A stretch of DNA of 26,362 nucleotides from a virus, in IMG/VR virus record IMGVR_UViG_3300038701_001323, positions 1 to 26,362 of that record; one strand, given 5' to 3'. A program made the position numbers and the translations under genes. This document shows positions 2,831 through 13,732 of this stretch, piece by piece (positions within the stretch are counted from its first letter, which is position 1; the number at the start of each line of letters is the position of its first letter). Under the pieces are notes generated by a model. It ran no database searches and had not been told where the DNA came from. It saw nothing but the letters and a program-made list of their open reading frames with translations.

Positions 2831-3586
2831 ATGGAACGGAACGAAATCGAGACTACGTTCGCCGAAGCGCTGGCCGAAGCGCGCGCCGCTTTCCCGTCTT
2901 CGATGCTGCTCCGACTCGCTCGGCTCAAGTTGAATCAGCGCTTTACGCGATGCCTAGGCCGAGCGACGTTCGGCGCTGGCGCGCGGCGCGGACTAGTCGA
3001 GCTAAGCGCGAGCGCTTTCCTGCATTCCGATGCAGACCCCGAAGAGTGCGACGATACGATTCGGCACGAACTCGCGCACCTAGTCGCGTTCGAACTCTAC
3101 GCCGATAGGGGACACGGAGACGGATTCAAGCGCGCCGCTCGCGCGCTCGGCGCTCGCCCGAAGTCTCGGGCGCCGCGCGGATCCTTTCAGTATCTCGCGA
3201 CGAAGCAGCGCCGGACTTGGCGCCGCTTGACTTGCTCGGAGTGCGGCCGACTCTGGGCCGTTTCCGCAGTCACGCTCGGCAAGGCTAACTCGCTCGGCCG
3301 CGCTTTCTCTTGCGAGTGCGGAAGCCGCGCGGCGCTTGTGGAAGATGCGGAGCGCTTGACGAAGGGCGAACTAGGCGCCGAGATTGCAGAGCAGAAAGCA
3401 GAGCGCGAGCGGACGCGAGCGCTTGCCGAGTCGGATGCCGCTACGGAAGCATGGGTGCAGAATCCGACCCCGTTCCGATTGCAGCGCGCCGAGCGCTTCG
3501 AAGCGCTGGCGCTGAAAGCAGACGAAGCGCTTTGCGCGGCTCGCGAGCGGCTCCAGAAAGAAAAAGCGAAAGCGGCTCAAGCGTAG
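2831..3586 (+). CDS. SprT-like zinc metalloprotease-family protein
   Basis: This 251-residue protein has the zinc-protease signature HELAH at residues 79-83, preceded by DDTIRHE and followed by a third candidate ligand in GHGDGF (His95), the arrangement seen in SprT/Spartan-type proteins. A zinc-ribbon-like pair follows: Cys135-x2-Cys138 and Cys161-x-Cys163. Residues from about 175 on are charged and alanine-rich, probably coiled coil. Family knowledge: SprT-like proteins bind DNA, and the eukaryotic member Spartan degrades DNA-crosslinked proteins; roles in phages are poorly defined. The leader before ATG 2831 is diverged (AGCGGAG then CATCAAG) but supplies a Shine-Dalgarno sequence. It lies after the hairpin at 2761-2789, so it may head its own transcript segment. 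It is the only early gene here with a confident family. Confidence 0.85.
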   Translation: MERNEIETTFAEALAEARAAFPSSMLLRLARLKLNQRFTRCLGRATFGAGARRGLVELSASAFLHSDADPEECDDTIRHELAHLVAFELYADRGHGDGFKRAARALGARPKSRAPRGSFQYLATKQRRTWRRLTCSECGRLWAVSAVTLGKANSLGRAFSCECGSRAALVEDAERLTKGELGAEIAEQKAERERTRALAESDAATEAWVQNPTPFRLQRAERFEALALKADEALCAARERLQKEKAKAAQA

Positions 3587-7307: not shown

Positions 7308-7901
7308 ATGACCACCAACGATCCCAAGAAAAACGACCCCGATGGGAAGAACCAACCCATCGTCCCCGAGCCCGTCCACGAGATCAAGCCGCTCGGAGGC
7401 GGCAGGCTCAGCAAGACCGGAGGCCGCAGTGGCCGCCTCGATCCGGCCACGAAGAACGCGATCCTGTCCCACATCCGCAAGGTCGGATACCACCTCCCCT
7501 CGCTGGCAGCGATCGCTGGGGTGAAGCCCGGCTGGCTCGGCGTCCTGCTGAAGCGGGACGAGGAGTTCGACCTGGAGATCCAGCAGGCTCGGGCCGTCTT
7601 CCTGTCCAAGCTGGAGGCGGAAGCCTTCCGTCGGGCAGTCGAGGGCTGGGACGTGCCGATCACCATTGCTGGGCAGGCCGACGTCGTCCGAAAGTTCTCC
7701 GACCAGCTCCTGCTCCACATGCTCAAGAAGTCCGCGCCCGACAAGCACGGTGACAAGGTGGAAATCAACCAGCACACGACGGTCGACACGGCCGAGCGCG
7801 TCGGGCAGCGCTTCGACATGAACCGACTGGACCCGAGCGAGCGCGCAACTTTGCGCAAGCTACTGAGTAAAGCGAAGATGGAAGACGAGCCTGAGATGTA
7901 A
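7308..7901 (+). CDS. terS: Terminase small subunit (putative)
   Basis: This 197-residue protein directly precedes the large terminase. A disordered polar N-terminus (residues 1-45) is followed by a helix-turn-helix-like segment (LPSLAAIAGVKPGWLGVLLKRDEEF, roughly 65-90), a long helical region (EIQQARAVFLSKLEAEAFRRAV) and a charged C-terminus. This matches the DNA-recognition plus oligomerisation layout of phage small terminases, which bind the packaging site and load the large subunit. ATG 7308 has AGGAG 5 bases upstream. The AGATCCAAG repeats and large inverted repeat just upstream are candidate recognition sites. Identification relies on position and HTH layout more than on a diagnostic motif. 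Confidence 0.75.
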   Translation: MTTNDPKKNDPDGKNQPIVPEPVHEIKPLGGGRLSKTGGRSGRLDPATKNAILSHIRKVGYHLPSLAAIAGVKPGWLGVLLKRDEEFDLEIQQARAVFLSKLEAEAFRRAVEGWDVPITIAGQADVVRKFSDQLLLHMLKKSAPDKHGDKVEINQHTTVDTAERVGQRFDMNRLDPSERATLRKLLSKAKMEDEPEM

Positions 7902-7965: not shown

Positions 7966-10524
7966 ATGCACGACTTCGACGACCTAGACCTGAACATGAG
8001 CGACGAGCAGCTTGAAGCTCTCGATCTCGACGGGCTGAGCTATGACCTCAGTCTCAAGGAGTTCGTGCGTCGGGCGTGGCAGGAGCTGGAGCCAGGGACG
8101 CCGATGGTCGATGGCTGGGTGCTGGACGCCGTGTGCTGCCACCTGGAGGCGGTGACAAGGGGCGAAATCGACCGCCTCATCATCAACATCCCGCCGGGCT
8201 GCTCCAAAGCGGCACGGCTAGATGAGCCCGTCATGACCCCTCTGGGCTGGAAGGCCCACGGCGACATCGTCCCGGGAGATCTGGTCTACGGCGCCGATGG
8301 CAGCCTGAAGATGGTGAAGGGCGTCACCCCCCGATTCGTGGTCCCAGAGTGGCGTGTGACGTTCGACGATGGGACGTCCGTTGTCACATCCGAGGCGCAC
8401 GAGTGGACCGTGGAGCGCGATCACAACGCCACCCCCCGCAACCGGGTGACACAGGTGGTCGAGACCAAGGATCTCCTCATCAAGGATGGGAACCAGCGTC
8501 CGGACGCGATCAAGCTCGCCGGACCCGTGGAGCTGCCAGAGCAGCACGGGCAGCTCGTCGACCCCTACCTGCTTGGTGCGTGGCTCGGTGACGGGAACAA
8601 GACCGACGCGATGGTGACTTCTCATCGGGACGACGCCTACGTTCTGGCCACGGAGCATGGCGCGGAGACGTCCCGCACCGACGGGAACGCCGTCAGGCTG
8701 CGCATCCCTGGGCTACGTGTCAGGCTCCGCGTCATGGGCCTGATTGGGAACAAGCACATTCCTGACGCCTACCTGTATGGCTCGATCCGTCAGCGCTGGG
8801 AGCTGCTCCGCGGTCTCATGGACACGGACGGGAGTGCGGACAAGTCCGGGCGCTGCATGTTCGCGCAGTCCAACCTTCAGCTCGCTGAGAACGTTCATGA
8901 GCTGATCTCCTCGCTTGGGCTGAAGGCCAAGCTGAGTCACCACATCTCCAGGCTCAACGGCAAGTCGTTCGATTCATGGCGCGTGACGTTCACCCCGCGG
9001 GCTGGAGACGTAGTGTTCAAGCTTCGCAGGAAGCAGGAGAGGCTTGAGGCGCGCAAGAAGGACAACCCCAGGACACGGCACCGCTATGTGGTGAAGGTCG
9101 AGAAGCTCAAGACCGAAGCGATCATGTCATGCCTTCAGGTGGAGGGCGAGCACTACCTCATCGGAAAGAGCTTCGTGCCCACCCACAATAGTATGATCTC
9201 GAACGTGTTCTGGCCCGCATGGGAGTGGCGCGAGCGCCCGTGGCTGCGCTACATCAGCGCGAGCTACGGCCAGGACCTCGCAGTGCGCGACCTCGTGCGC
9301 TGCCGCGACCTCGTGCAGTCCGACTGGTATCAGCAGCGTTGGCCGATCCAGTTCAAGGGGGATCAAAACCTCAAGACGGCGTATGTGAACATGAGCACCG
9401 GCTTCAGGTTCGCGTCGAGCGTCGGAGGATCGCTCACGGGCTGGCGCGGTGACAGGATCATCCTGGATGACCCGCACAGCGTCAAGACGGCTGAGAGCGA
9501 GGCACACAGGCTAGAATCGCTCCGCTGGGTGACTGAGACGGTGCCGACCCGTCTGAACGAGTCGAAGCTGGTCCCCTCAGCCATCGTCTGCATCATGCAG
9601 AGGCTGCACCACGAGGACGTGTCCGGCCTGCTGTCCGACACGGGCGGCTGGGAGCACCTGATCCTGCCGATGGAGTGGGAGGGCGAGAATCGCTCGAAGA
9701 CGTGCGTCCACTGGACGTCTCCAATCCTGGGCATTCACGAGCCCGAGCCGTTTCAGGACCCGCGGGGCTATAGCCCGTCGCGCATTCCGGACGTCGAGGG
9801 GCAGACCCGCGAGGACGTCGAGGAGCTGCTGTGGCCCGAGCGCTTCAGCCGAGAGTCGGTGGAGCAGCTCAAGACGTCGTTCAGGCAGATGGGCGACGAC
9901 TACGCGGTAGCCGGTCAGCTCCAGCAGAGGCCCGCGCCTCGCGGCGGTGGCATCTTCGACATCGAGTCGATCAACTACATCGACCTGGATCAGGTCCCCG
10001 AGGGGCACGACGAGTGCCGCGGCTGGGACTTCGCCGCTACCTCGCGCAAGAAGAACAAGCGCGCCGCCTACACCGCGGGCGCCCACCTACGCCTCGTCGA
10101 CGGGAAGCTCTACGTCATCGACGTGGTGCGCGAGCAGCTAGACCCGAGCGAGGTCGAGCAGCTCCTGGTCGAAACAGCATTCAGGGACGGCCGCAACGTC
10201 CCAATCAGTATCCCGCAGGACCCTGGGCAGGCTGGCAAGCACCAAGTGCGCTACTTCGCTGGACAGCTCCAGGGCTACAACATGCACTTCTCACCTGAGT
10301 CGGGCGACAAGGAAGCCCGCGCGAACCCGTTCGCCACTCAGGTCCGGGCAGGCAACGTCTACTTCGTCAAGGCGGAGTGGAACAAGGACCTCATCGTCGA
10401 GATGAGCCACTTCCCCAAAGGGGTCTACAAGGACCAGTGCGACGCGCTCTCCCGGGCCTACTCCTACATCGTGACGATGTGCGAGCCCGAGATCGACGTG
10501 GTCGGAGGAATCGAGATCTCATGA
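7966..10524 (+). CDS. terL: Terminase large subunit, intein-containing precursor (852 aa)
   Basis: The ATPase-nuclease motor that cuts and packages DNA. Host protein residues 1-81 and 409-852 would splice to 525 aa, normal for the family. Walker A is PPGCSK (76-81) joined after splicing to Ser409. Walker B is RIILDDPH (497-504, Asp501-Asp502). RNase H-like nuclease acidic residues are probably Asp688 in GWDFAAT, Asp752 in IPQDPG and Asp826 in KDQCDAL. Residues 82-408 are an intein (separate entry). Because it interrupts Walker A, the precursor cannot be an active ATPase until spliced. The start has AGGAG in the loop of a hairpin. The stop overlaps the portal ATG (ATGA). Confidence 0.95.
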   Translation: MHDFDDLDLNMSDEQLEALDLDGLSYDLSLKEFVRRAWQELEPGTPMVDGWVLDAVCCHLEAVTRGEIDRLIINIPPGCSKAARLDEPVMTPLGWKAHGDIVPGDLVYGADGSLKMVKGVTPRFVVPEWRVTFDDGTSVVTSEAHEWTVERDHNATPRNRVTQVVETKDLLIKDGNQRPDAIKLAGPVELPEQHGQLVDPYLLGAWLGDGNKTDAMVTSHRDDAYVLATEHGAETSRTDGNAVRLRIPGLRVRLRVMGLIGNKHIPDAYLYGSIRQRWELLRGLMDTDGSADKSGRCMFAQSNLQLAENVHELISSLGLKAKLSHHISRLNGKSFDSWRVTFTPRAGDVVFKLRRKQERLEARKKDNPRTRHRYVVKVEKLKTEAIMSCLQVEGEHYLIGKSFVPTHNSMISNVFWPAWEWRERPWLRYISASYGQDLAVRDLVRCRDLVQSDWYQQRWPIQFKGDQNLKTAYVNMSTGFRFASSVGGSLTGWRGDRIILDDPHSVKTAESEAHRLESLRWVTETVPTRLNESKLVPSAIVCIMQRLHHEDVSGLLSDTGGWEHLILPMEWEGENRSKTCVHWTSPILGIHEPEPFQDPRGYSPSRIPDVEGQTREDVEELLWPERFSRESVEQLKTSFRQMGDDYAVAGQLQQRPAPRGGGIFDIESINYIDLDQVPEGHDECRGWDFAATSRKKNKRAAYTAGAHLRLVDGKLYVIDVVREQLDPSEVEQLLVETAFRDGRNVPISIPQDPGQAGKHQVRYFAGQLQGYNMHFSPESGDKEARANPFATQVRAGNVYFVKAEWNKDLIVEMSHFPKGVYKDQCDALSRAYSYIVTMCEPEIDVVGGIEIS
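8209..9189 (+). mobile_element. Class 3-type intein with LAGLIDADG endonuclease (327 aa) in terL
   Basis: The insert spans precursor residues 82-408, between Lys81 and Ser409. Intein numbering: position 1 is Ala, not Cys or Ser. Block A is the VMTPLGW region. Block B is SEAHEW with His64 and Trp66. Block F is SCLQVEGEHY with Cys308 where other inteins usually have Asp. Block G ends PTHN with Thr325, His326 and Asn327, and the +1 residue is Ser. Trp-Cys-Thr at these positions plus a non-nucleophilic first residue is the known signature of class 3 inteins, in which the block F Cys starts splicing. LAGLIDADG motifs lie at 121-129 (LLGAWLGDG) and 199-208 (LLRGLMDTDG), both with the acidic residue, so the homing endonuclease looks intact. 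The element carries no separate start codon. Confidence 0.9.
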
Positions 10525-11987
10525 GAGACCCAGTGAACAAGCCGAAGCTGCCCCTCAAGAAGGCGGTCCTTGGTAGCGAAGACGATCCTCTCCTCCGAGT
10601 GGAACGCGGCAGCGACGATCCGTTCACGGCGCTCGGCGATCCTGGCACGGCCATATGGGGCGGATGGATCGTCGAGCAGGAGAAGGACGCTGACCTGACC
10701 GGAACCGAGAAATACCGGACATTCGACAACATCGTTGCCAACGTGTCTATCGTCGCAGCGGGCGCCCGACTGTTTCTGAACCTCATCTCGAAGGCGAGCT
10801 GGACCGTGCTCCCCGCCGAGGAGACGCCCGAGGCGCAGCGCATCGCCGACGCGGTGCAGAAGGTCATGGACGAATGCGAGACCTCATGGACGAGCATCGT
10901 GCGCCAAGCGGCGACCTACCGGCTCTACGGCTTCTCCATCATGGAGTGGACGGCCAAGCTTCTCGACGACGGAACGATCGGATTCGACAACATCGACAAC
11001 CGGCCGCAGGTCACGATCGAGCGCTGGGACAGGGACAGGAACGGCAAGATCGTCGGCGTCGTTCAACGATCGCCGCAGACCTTCGAGGAGATCTACCTCC
11101 CGCGCCAGAAGATCCTCTACCTCGTCGACGACTCGCTCAACGATTCGCCCGAGGGGCTCGGCCTCTTCCGCCACCTCGTGAAGGACGCGCACAAGCTGCG
11201 CCGCTACGAGCTGCTGGAGGGCTGGGGCTACGAGCGCGATCTCCGCGGCGTGCCGGTCGGCCGGGCGCCGCTGGCGGAGATCAAGAAGAAGCTCAAGAAC
11301 GGCGACATGACGGAGACGCAGGCGGACGCCCAACTGGAGCCGCTGAAGAACTTCGTGAGCAAGGCCCTGAAGGGCATCTCGACGGGCATTCTGCTCGACT
11401 CGCAGACCTACCGCGCCGCGGGAGAGACGAAGCAGCCGACGCCCGAGCGCGTCTGGGACATCCAGCTCCTCTCCGGGCAGTCCGTCGGCCTGACCGACAT
11501 GGCGAAGGCCATCGACCGACTGACCCGCAACCTCGCCCGCGCGCTTGGCGTGGAGCAGATCCTGCTCGGCGAGAACCGCATCGGCAGCCACGCGCTGGCC
11601 AAGGACAAGACGCAGACGCTCGGCATGATAATCGACTCGACCCTGGGCGAGATGGGCGAGACGTTCGAGAAGGACATCCTGCGCCCCCTCTTCGAGCTGA
11701 ACGGCTGGAGCGAGGACCTCAAGCCCACGTTCAAGATCGAGCAGGTGCAGTATCGCGACCTGGACAGCATCGGCGAGTTCATCAAGTCGATCTCGCAGGC
11801 AGGCGCCCCGCTCATGCCGACCGACCCGGCGATTCCGAAGCTCTACGAGCTGCTCGGGCTCCCGGCGCCGGACCCGGAGGAGGCCATGCAGCTCCTCACG
11901 CAGATGAACCAGCCCATGCCGGGCGAAGAGCCGGAAGAGCCGTCGGAGGACGAAGACTCCGATGACATGGACGGAGAGGACGCATAG
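10521..11987 (+). CDS. Portal protein (DUF935/Mu gp29-like)
   Basis: A 488-residue protein immediately after terL, overlapping it by 4 bases (ATGA), with GGAGGA at 10503-10508. The order ASWTVLP, then YGFSIMEW, IGFDNIDNRPQ and DSPEGLGLFRHLV is typical of portals in the DUF935-like group, including the aromatic patch and the basic crown helix near LRRYELLEGWGYERD. The portal is the dodecameric ring at the capsid vertex through which DNA enters and to which connectors attach. The C-terminal 30 residues are Pro/Glu/Asp-rich (EEPEEPSEDEDSDDMDG) and probably disordered. The frame is open upstream of 10521, inside terL, but the overlap and context favour this ATG. Confidence 0.88.
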   Translation: MRDPVNKPKLPLKKAVLGSEDDPLLRVERGSDDPFTALGDPGTAIWGGWIVEQEKDADLTGTEKYRTFDNIVANVSIVAAGARLFLNLISKASWTVLPAEETPEAQRIADAVQKVMDECETSWTSIVRQAATYRLYGFSIMEWTAKLLDDGTIGFDNIDNRPQVTIERWDRDRNGKIVGVVQRSPQTFEEIYLPRQKILYLVDDSLNDSPEGLGLFRHLVKDAHKLRRYELLEGWGYERDLRGVPVGRAPLAEIKKKLKNGDMTETQADAQLEPLKNFVSKALKGISTGILLDSQTYRAAGETKQPTPERVWDIQLLSGQSVGLTDMAKAIDRLTRNLARALGVEQILLGENRIGSHALAKDKTQTLGMIIDSTLGEMGETFEKDILRPLFELNGWSEDLKPTFKIEQVQYRDLDSIGEFIKSISQAGAPLMPTDPAIPKLYELLGLPAPDPEEAMQLLTQMNQPMPGEEPEEPSEDEDSDDMDGEDA

Positions 11988-12863: not shown

Positions 12864-13244
12864 ATGGGCAAGGACACCAACCCGCCGACTGACCGCTTCA
12901 GCGGGGCATCCGGAGTGATGCTCGTCGACTTCCAGATGTCGACAGTAGAGTTCAGCCTGTTCAGCTCCACGCTGTGCGGCAACACGACGAAGCACGGGAA
13001 CGCTACCCTCGTGTCGTGGGACATCGGGCCGTCGAAGGTCCTTGTCACCCTGGCATACCCGTGCGGATCTCTGTGGGCAAAGGAGCAGTCGGATATGACC
13101 TGTGGCGGCGACGACGACACTGCGATCACCCTGTTCGTCAAAGCGTCCCGCGCATCCGATGGACTCACTCGGATCTGGCCGAGCCGAGTTCGGTTCCGCG
13201 AGTATGCCCTGACGGAGGACATCGGGACATCGGTGACAGTCTAA
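12864..13244 (+). CDS. Hypothetical protein in head operon (126 aa)
   Basis: A 126-residue protein starting MGKDTNPPTDRFSGASGVML, with mixed beta character and several Cys (Cys48, Cys77 and Cys90 approximately). GGGAGGA lies about 8 bases before ATG 12864, only 3 bases after the preceding stop. Its own TAA overlaps the ATG of the GIY-YIG gene by one base. I do not recognise it. Being adjacent to a homing endonuclease gene, it may mark the junction of that gene's insertion. Confidence 0.65.
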   Translation: MGKDTNPPTDRFSGASGVMLVDFQMSTVEFSLFSSTLCGNTTKHGNATLVSWDIGPSKVLVTLAYPCGSLWAKEQSDMTCGGDDDTAITLFVKASRASDGLTRIWPSRVRFREYALTEDIGTSVTV

Positions 13245-13732
13245 TGGGCAAGGCCAGCCTCTACATCCTGGAGTTCTCTGACGGCAAGATCTACGTCGGC
13301 ATCACGACGCAGCGTCTTACCCAAAGGATCGCCAACCACCGATATGCGGCGTCCCATGGCGGCAAATCTCTCGTGAACCGGGCGTGGAGATCCCTAGGTG
13401 AGCCGCGCATCGTGGAGGTGGCCGAGGGCGACCTGGAGCAGATCAAGGACCTTGAGCGCGGGCTCACCCTTCACCTGAACTCCGTTGCCCCAGCGGGGTA
13501 CAACCGCAGAGTCGGCGGCAGCCACAACGGGGCTCACTCCGCCGAGACCAAGCAGCACCTGAGTTCGAAGCTCAAGGGGAGAAAGCTGGGCCCAGTATCC
13601 GAAGAGACCCGTCGGCGTATGAGCGAGGCTGCCAGACGTCGGAATGCGCGGATGACCGAAGAAGAGAGGGTCAGGCGCGCTGAACTCGGAAGGAAGAACG
13701 CAATGAAGCGGTGGGGGACACATGGGGCGTAA
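13244..13732 (+). CDS. Free-standing GIY-YIG homing endonuclease
   Basis: A 162-residue protein with an N-terminal GIY-YIG nuclease: LYILEF (residues 6-11) and KIYVGIT (15-21) are the two strand motifs, RLTQRI carries the conserved Arg, and the helix IKDLERGLTLHL holds the metal-binding Glu. Next comes AGYNRRVGGSHNGAHSAETKQHLS and then basic repeats with SEETRRRMSEAARRR, typical of NUMOD3-type DNA-binding modules in phage homing endonucleases. Such genes copy themselves by cutting intronless or insert-free alleles. The start overlaps the previous stop (TAATG), and the 3' end overlaps the head-closure gene by 11 bases, whose ribosome-binding site lies in this gene. No intron boundary was recognised. 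Confidence 0.85.
   Translation: MGKASLYILEFSDGKIYVGITTQRLTQRIANHRYAASHGGKSLVNRAWRSLGEPRIVEVAEGDLEQIKDLERGLTLHLNSVAPAGYNRRVGGSHNGAHSAETKQHLSSKLKGRKLGPVSEETRRRMSEAARRRNARMTEEERVRRAELGRKNAMKRWGTHGA

Follow-up and report, generated by a model that had tools for sequence, protein, structure and literature searches.

A predicted class 3 intein with a LAGLIDADG endonuclease domain in the ATP-binding loop of a phage terminase large subunit

A bifunctional class 3 intein almost certainly occupies the ATP-binding loop of the phage packaging ATPase encoded in the window, by which is meant the whole stretch of DNA analyzed here, a lone uncultivated-virus record of 26,362 bases from IMG/VR; both its splicing and its DNA cutting activity are predicted from the sequence. 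The host gene is terL (7966..10524, + strand), a single uninterrupted frame of 852 codons that encodes the precursor of the terminase large subunit together with its intein (852 aa). Scans of the whole protein assigned its C-terminal part to Terminase_6C (E 5.5e-12) and to the PsiM2 ORF9 terminase (TIGR01630, psiM2_ORF9; E 3.8e-22) and the insert to LAGLIDADG_3, and the gene product also matched phrog_38 (E 1.8e-70). Profiles and alignment identify the extein as a terminase of the PsiM2/Terminase_6C type with a P-loop and Walker B ATPase and an RNase H-like nuclease. Alignment with intein-free terminases delimits the N-extein of 81 aa (7966..8208, +), which ends with ...NIPPGCSK, the initial segment of the ATP-binding loop. 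The C-extein of 444 aa (9190..10521, +) begins with Ser+1 and, according to domain scan and alignment, comprises the Walker B-like RIILDDP and the RNase H-like nuclease. As a terminase small subunit gene (7308..7901, +; phrog_4044, E 6.6e-21) is found upstream and the ATG of the downstream portal protein gene (10521..11987, +; Portal_Mu, E 1.7e-19; phrog_113, E 2.2e-51) overlaps the terL stop codon, the locus is an unremarkable tailed-phage cluster of packaging and head genes. On the 5' side of the packaging genes, the window encodes a SprT-like metalloprotease-family protein (2831-3586, +; PF10263, E 1.2e-10). A free-standing GIY-YIG homing endonuclease (13244-13732, +, within the ORF 12974-13732; PF01541, E 1.7e-5; phrog_314, E 5.4e-15; weak NUMOD3 match), the second nuclease of a mobile type in the window, is encoded between the genes for the head-tail adaptor and for head closure.

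The sequence, the alignment of relatives and the structure model were used to delimit the intein of 327 aa (precursor residues 82-408; 8209..9189, +). It is flanked by ...INIPPGCSK and SMISNVFWPAW, and subtraction of residues 82-408 from the precursor leaves an extein protein that reads ...RLIINIPPGCSK^SMISNVFWPAWEW... and has exactly the 525 residues that a preliminary description of this DNA had predicted for the spliced product. The intein-free terminases of Shewanella S0112, Rhizobium RHph_X3_2, Erythrobacter ZS04, Aeromonas 56 and Paracoccus Pkon1 align without gaps across the site (38-49% identity), e.g. NVPPGCTKSMTTSVFWPAW. In IMG/VR, the extein as a single query sequence retrieved one relative only, and a profile search was required to obtain 80 further terminase homologues (41-55% identity), one of which (L067) bears an intein. 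Nearly all IMG/VR loci with a match that spans the site read N[VI]PPGxxKS. Since the homologues without the insert close up at K|S, the junction is assigned to the ATP-binding loop, with Lys81 before and Ser82 after the insert. The proposed insertion between the P-loop Lys and Ser of terL was thus borne out by approximately 85 intein-free homologues that run through PPGxxK^S, with the nuance that PPGCSKS is not a canonical Walker A motif; it represents the deviant PPGxxKS form usual for terminases of the PsiM2/Terminase_6C type, as opposed to the canonical GKS form. A search for homologous terminases that carry the 327 residues as a normal domain, which would have spoken against an intein, led to these approximately 85 proteins without them. 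The probability that the insert is a normal terminase domain or an assembly artefact is negligible and both readings were rejected, as the insert-free homologues close at K|S, the insert of an independent contig (L067) is related and interrupts the terminase at the identical residue, and the GC content and codon-position GC of the insert are similar to those of the exteins; nothing was found in their favour.

In class 3 inteins, splicing is started by Cys F:4, both Cys F:4 and Trp B:12 are needed, and the +1 residue is typically Ser or Thr (PMC5222942). The window intein starts with Ala1 (8209..8211, +), which is in register with Ala1 of its relatives, and lacks an N-terminal nucleophile (Cys, Ser or Thr). 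The further residues expected of this class are all in place, i.e. His64 (B:10) and Trp66 (B:12) in block B (8398..8406, +), Cys308 (F:4; 9130..9132, +), Thr325 (G:5), His326 (G:6) and Asn327 (G:7) in block G (9181..9189, +), and Ser+1. Alignment of 32 relatives showed H64, W66, C308, H326 and N327 to be invariant and T325 to be nearly so, which confirms the class 3-type signature (A1, W66, C308 and T325) reported in the preliminary description and agrees with its proposal of Cys308 as the presumed initiating nucleophile. In the wider family, Cys is present at this position in 155 of 169 relatives and the full W-C-T triad in 152 of the 163 members having a C-terminus, although this set was collected with the window intein as query and its share of class 3 members is uninformative on the frequency of class 3 versus class 1 inteins in general. 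A loose count gave 118 of the 163 members with a Lys no more than a few residues from the start and with Ser or Thr at +1. One of the few breaks in the triad is a class 3-type intein in a terminase-like gene (L016:2163-3185), which follows APRH and in which Gly replaces Thr at G:5 (TGHN end). It is very improbable that splicing of the window intein is started by an N-terminal nucleophile (class 1) or by direct attack of Ser+1 (class 2). Class 2 inteins also lack a nucleophile at residue 1, while nothing favours class 1 with Ala at this position; both are opposed by the complete and conserved W-C-T triad and by the relatives of solved structure and proven mechanism, which belong to class 3. The relatives of the window intein in PDB sequence searches are class 3 DnaB inteins.

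An AlphaFold2 model was calculated for the intein plus 10 flanking residues per side from an alignment of 23 sequences and reached a mean pLDDT of 89 and a pTM of 0.88. Foldseek matched the entire length to PI-SceI (E 1.2e-18, TM ~0.67), the endonuclease domain to I-DmoI, and the splicing domain to the class 3 inteins MchDnaB1 (6riy) and MsmDnaB (6bs8), consistent with a predicted HINT fold. A tblastn search against known phages matched TerL inteins over residues 1-327 with E-values down to 1e-42, and Pfam LAGLIDADG_3 (PF14528) was detected on the insert (E 3.7e-8). These matches and the confident model resembling intein crystal structures argue that an intein, rather than a chance similarity, was identified. 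The first LAGLIDADG motif, LLGAWLGDG (residues 121-129; 8569..8595, +), was located by alignment and contains the acidic Asp128 (Asp in 161/169 relatives). The second, LLRGLMDTDG (residues 199-208; 8803..8832, +), was recognized by domain scan and alignment and contains Asp207 (Asp in 167/169 relatives). Two motifs with one acidic residue each (D128 and D207) are characteristic of a LAGLIDADG homing endonuclease, and the earlier statement that both retain this residue was confirmed. Their retention supports an intact nuclease that is predicted to be active.

Judging from the mechanism of the class 3 family, Cys308 would attack the Lys81-Ala1 peptide bond to generate the branched thioester at block F, and the N-extein would be transferred to Ser+1. 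Cyclization of Asn327 would then release the intein, and an O-N acyl shift would link Lys81 to Ser82, which would restore PPGCSKS and yield the 525-aa terminase. In unspliced TerL, the ATP-binding loop is divided by 327 residues and DNA packaging should fail. Splicing of a class 3 DnaB intein from mycobacteria is reported to be subject to an oxidation-type switch (PMC6195587), and by analogy oxidation of Cys308 might block splicing and leave the packaging ATPase without activity until conditions become suitable, although such a condition-sensitive role is considered improbable for the window intein. Cleavage of intein-free terL alleles at the uninterrupted site is the probable role of the LAGLIDADG domain, and repair would then copy the intein in.

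In mycobacteriophages, inteins are found more often in phage terminases than in any other host protein. TerL1-a inteins of these phages are located between the P-loop Lys and Thr, and five of seven TerL intein types were tested, all of which spliced while two cut intein-free alleles (Kelley et al. 2016, PMC5050341). In these mycobacteriophage K|T inteins (NelitzaMV, Toto and others), the alignment directly showed the motifs of class 3, and like the window intein they combine a TerL host, the P-loop Lys|Ser/Thr site, the W-C-T triad and a LAGLIDADG domain. They align over the full length but share only 36-37% identity with it; their host belongs to the terminase_1 family (PMC5050341), whereas that of the window intein is of the PsiM2/Terminase_6C type with a PPGxxKS loop, and the +1 residue is Thr in NelitzaMV and Ser in the window. 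MchDnaB1 (6rix/6riy) and MsmDnaBi1 (6bs8) share the fold of the splicing domain and the His-Trp-Cys-Thr active-site residues, but reside in DnaB helicases and were solved as mini-inteins without endonuclease. PI-SceI (VMA1 intein) likewise consists of a splicing and a LAGLIDADG endonuclease domain, but employs the class 1 mechanism, resides in the yeast V-ATPase and is only ~16% identical. Terminase inteins at Lys|Ser/Thr are thus already published (PMC5050341) and class 3 inteins occur in large numbers in the phage collections that were searched. Matches to the window intein were obtained in 772 phage records of the phage collection and in more than 580 IMG/VR stretches, so that rarity is a weak ground for interest; three relatives only were detected in GTDB genomes (best identity 39%). 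The mycobacteriophage survey places inteins of the terminase_6 family in the C-motif only, and class 3 inteins at the K|S loop site of PsiM2/Terminase_6C-type terminases may be absent from it (PMC5050341). To this terminase family the window adds a divergent class 3 intein that appears to be intact and interrupts the ATP-binding loop. Four IMG/VR terminases detectably similar to that of the window (L027 and L021-L023) carry an intein at the same site, which indicates a variation in the host branch and no new kind of intein.

What is new is that a homologous terminase, encoded in L067 (IMGVR_UViG_3300033049_000079), is interrupted at the same position by a class 3 intein (L067:521-1507, 329 aa) that is related to the window intein and the closest found. 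This intein is inserted at the identical K|S position (NVPPGCTK^PLEIN...LTRN^SMTTSVFW) and shares the terminase family, the Trp/Cys/Thr triad and the LAGLIDADG domain with the window intein, but is only 41% identical, starts with Pro1 instead of Ala1 and ends with TRN, where Arg replaces the penultimate His (LTRN); a few other family members likewise lack this His. With the nearest relatives at ~41% identity, the inteins have diverged too far for selection to be tested usefully. A careful tree of 42 sequences unites the two inteins as sisters (support 97/85), as does a tree of 162 sequences (99). However, the L067 terminase extein is sister to the terminase of Shewanella S0112, which has no intein (100/99), and a constraint uniting the window and L067 exteins was rejected (AU p 0.0003). 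This discrepancy of sister inteins in separate exteins points to more than one gain or loss at the terL K|S site, and could reflect either the homing of a mobile element or, with no recent homing, an old intein that was lost repeatedly. One possible, though rather unlikely, version of the latter is that the window intein is a splicing-competent class 3 intein with an inactive endonuclease, which was kept by descent, lost in most relatives and is now immobile. Most close terminases are indeed intein-free, and the path length between window and L067 is of the same order for the inteins (2.28) as for the exteins (1.84), as would fit old vertical descent and losses. On the other hand, endonuclease domains that no longer home usually decay, whereas both catalytic Asp residues and the entire LAGLIDADG fold are retained in an open frame here, as expected for the preferred reading of a bifunctional intein. 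The window and L067 show one terL site to be intein-bearing in separate lineages with empty nearest relatives, and this set of bearing and empty terL genes provides natural material for testing phage homing; apart from its host branch and the L067 pair, the window intein is an ordinary case. The junction codons (8206-8208/9190-9192) are AAA|AGT in both intein-bearing alleles, while in seven empty terL alleles the same Ser codon is TCN in six and AGC in one. The shared AAA|AGT is possibly a trace of co-conversion, judged from two cases only. In Proteus phage ZX7 (L053:1-748), a gene annotated as a homing endonuclease is located directly 5' of an intein-free homologous terL.
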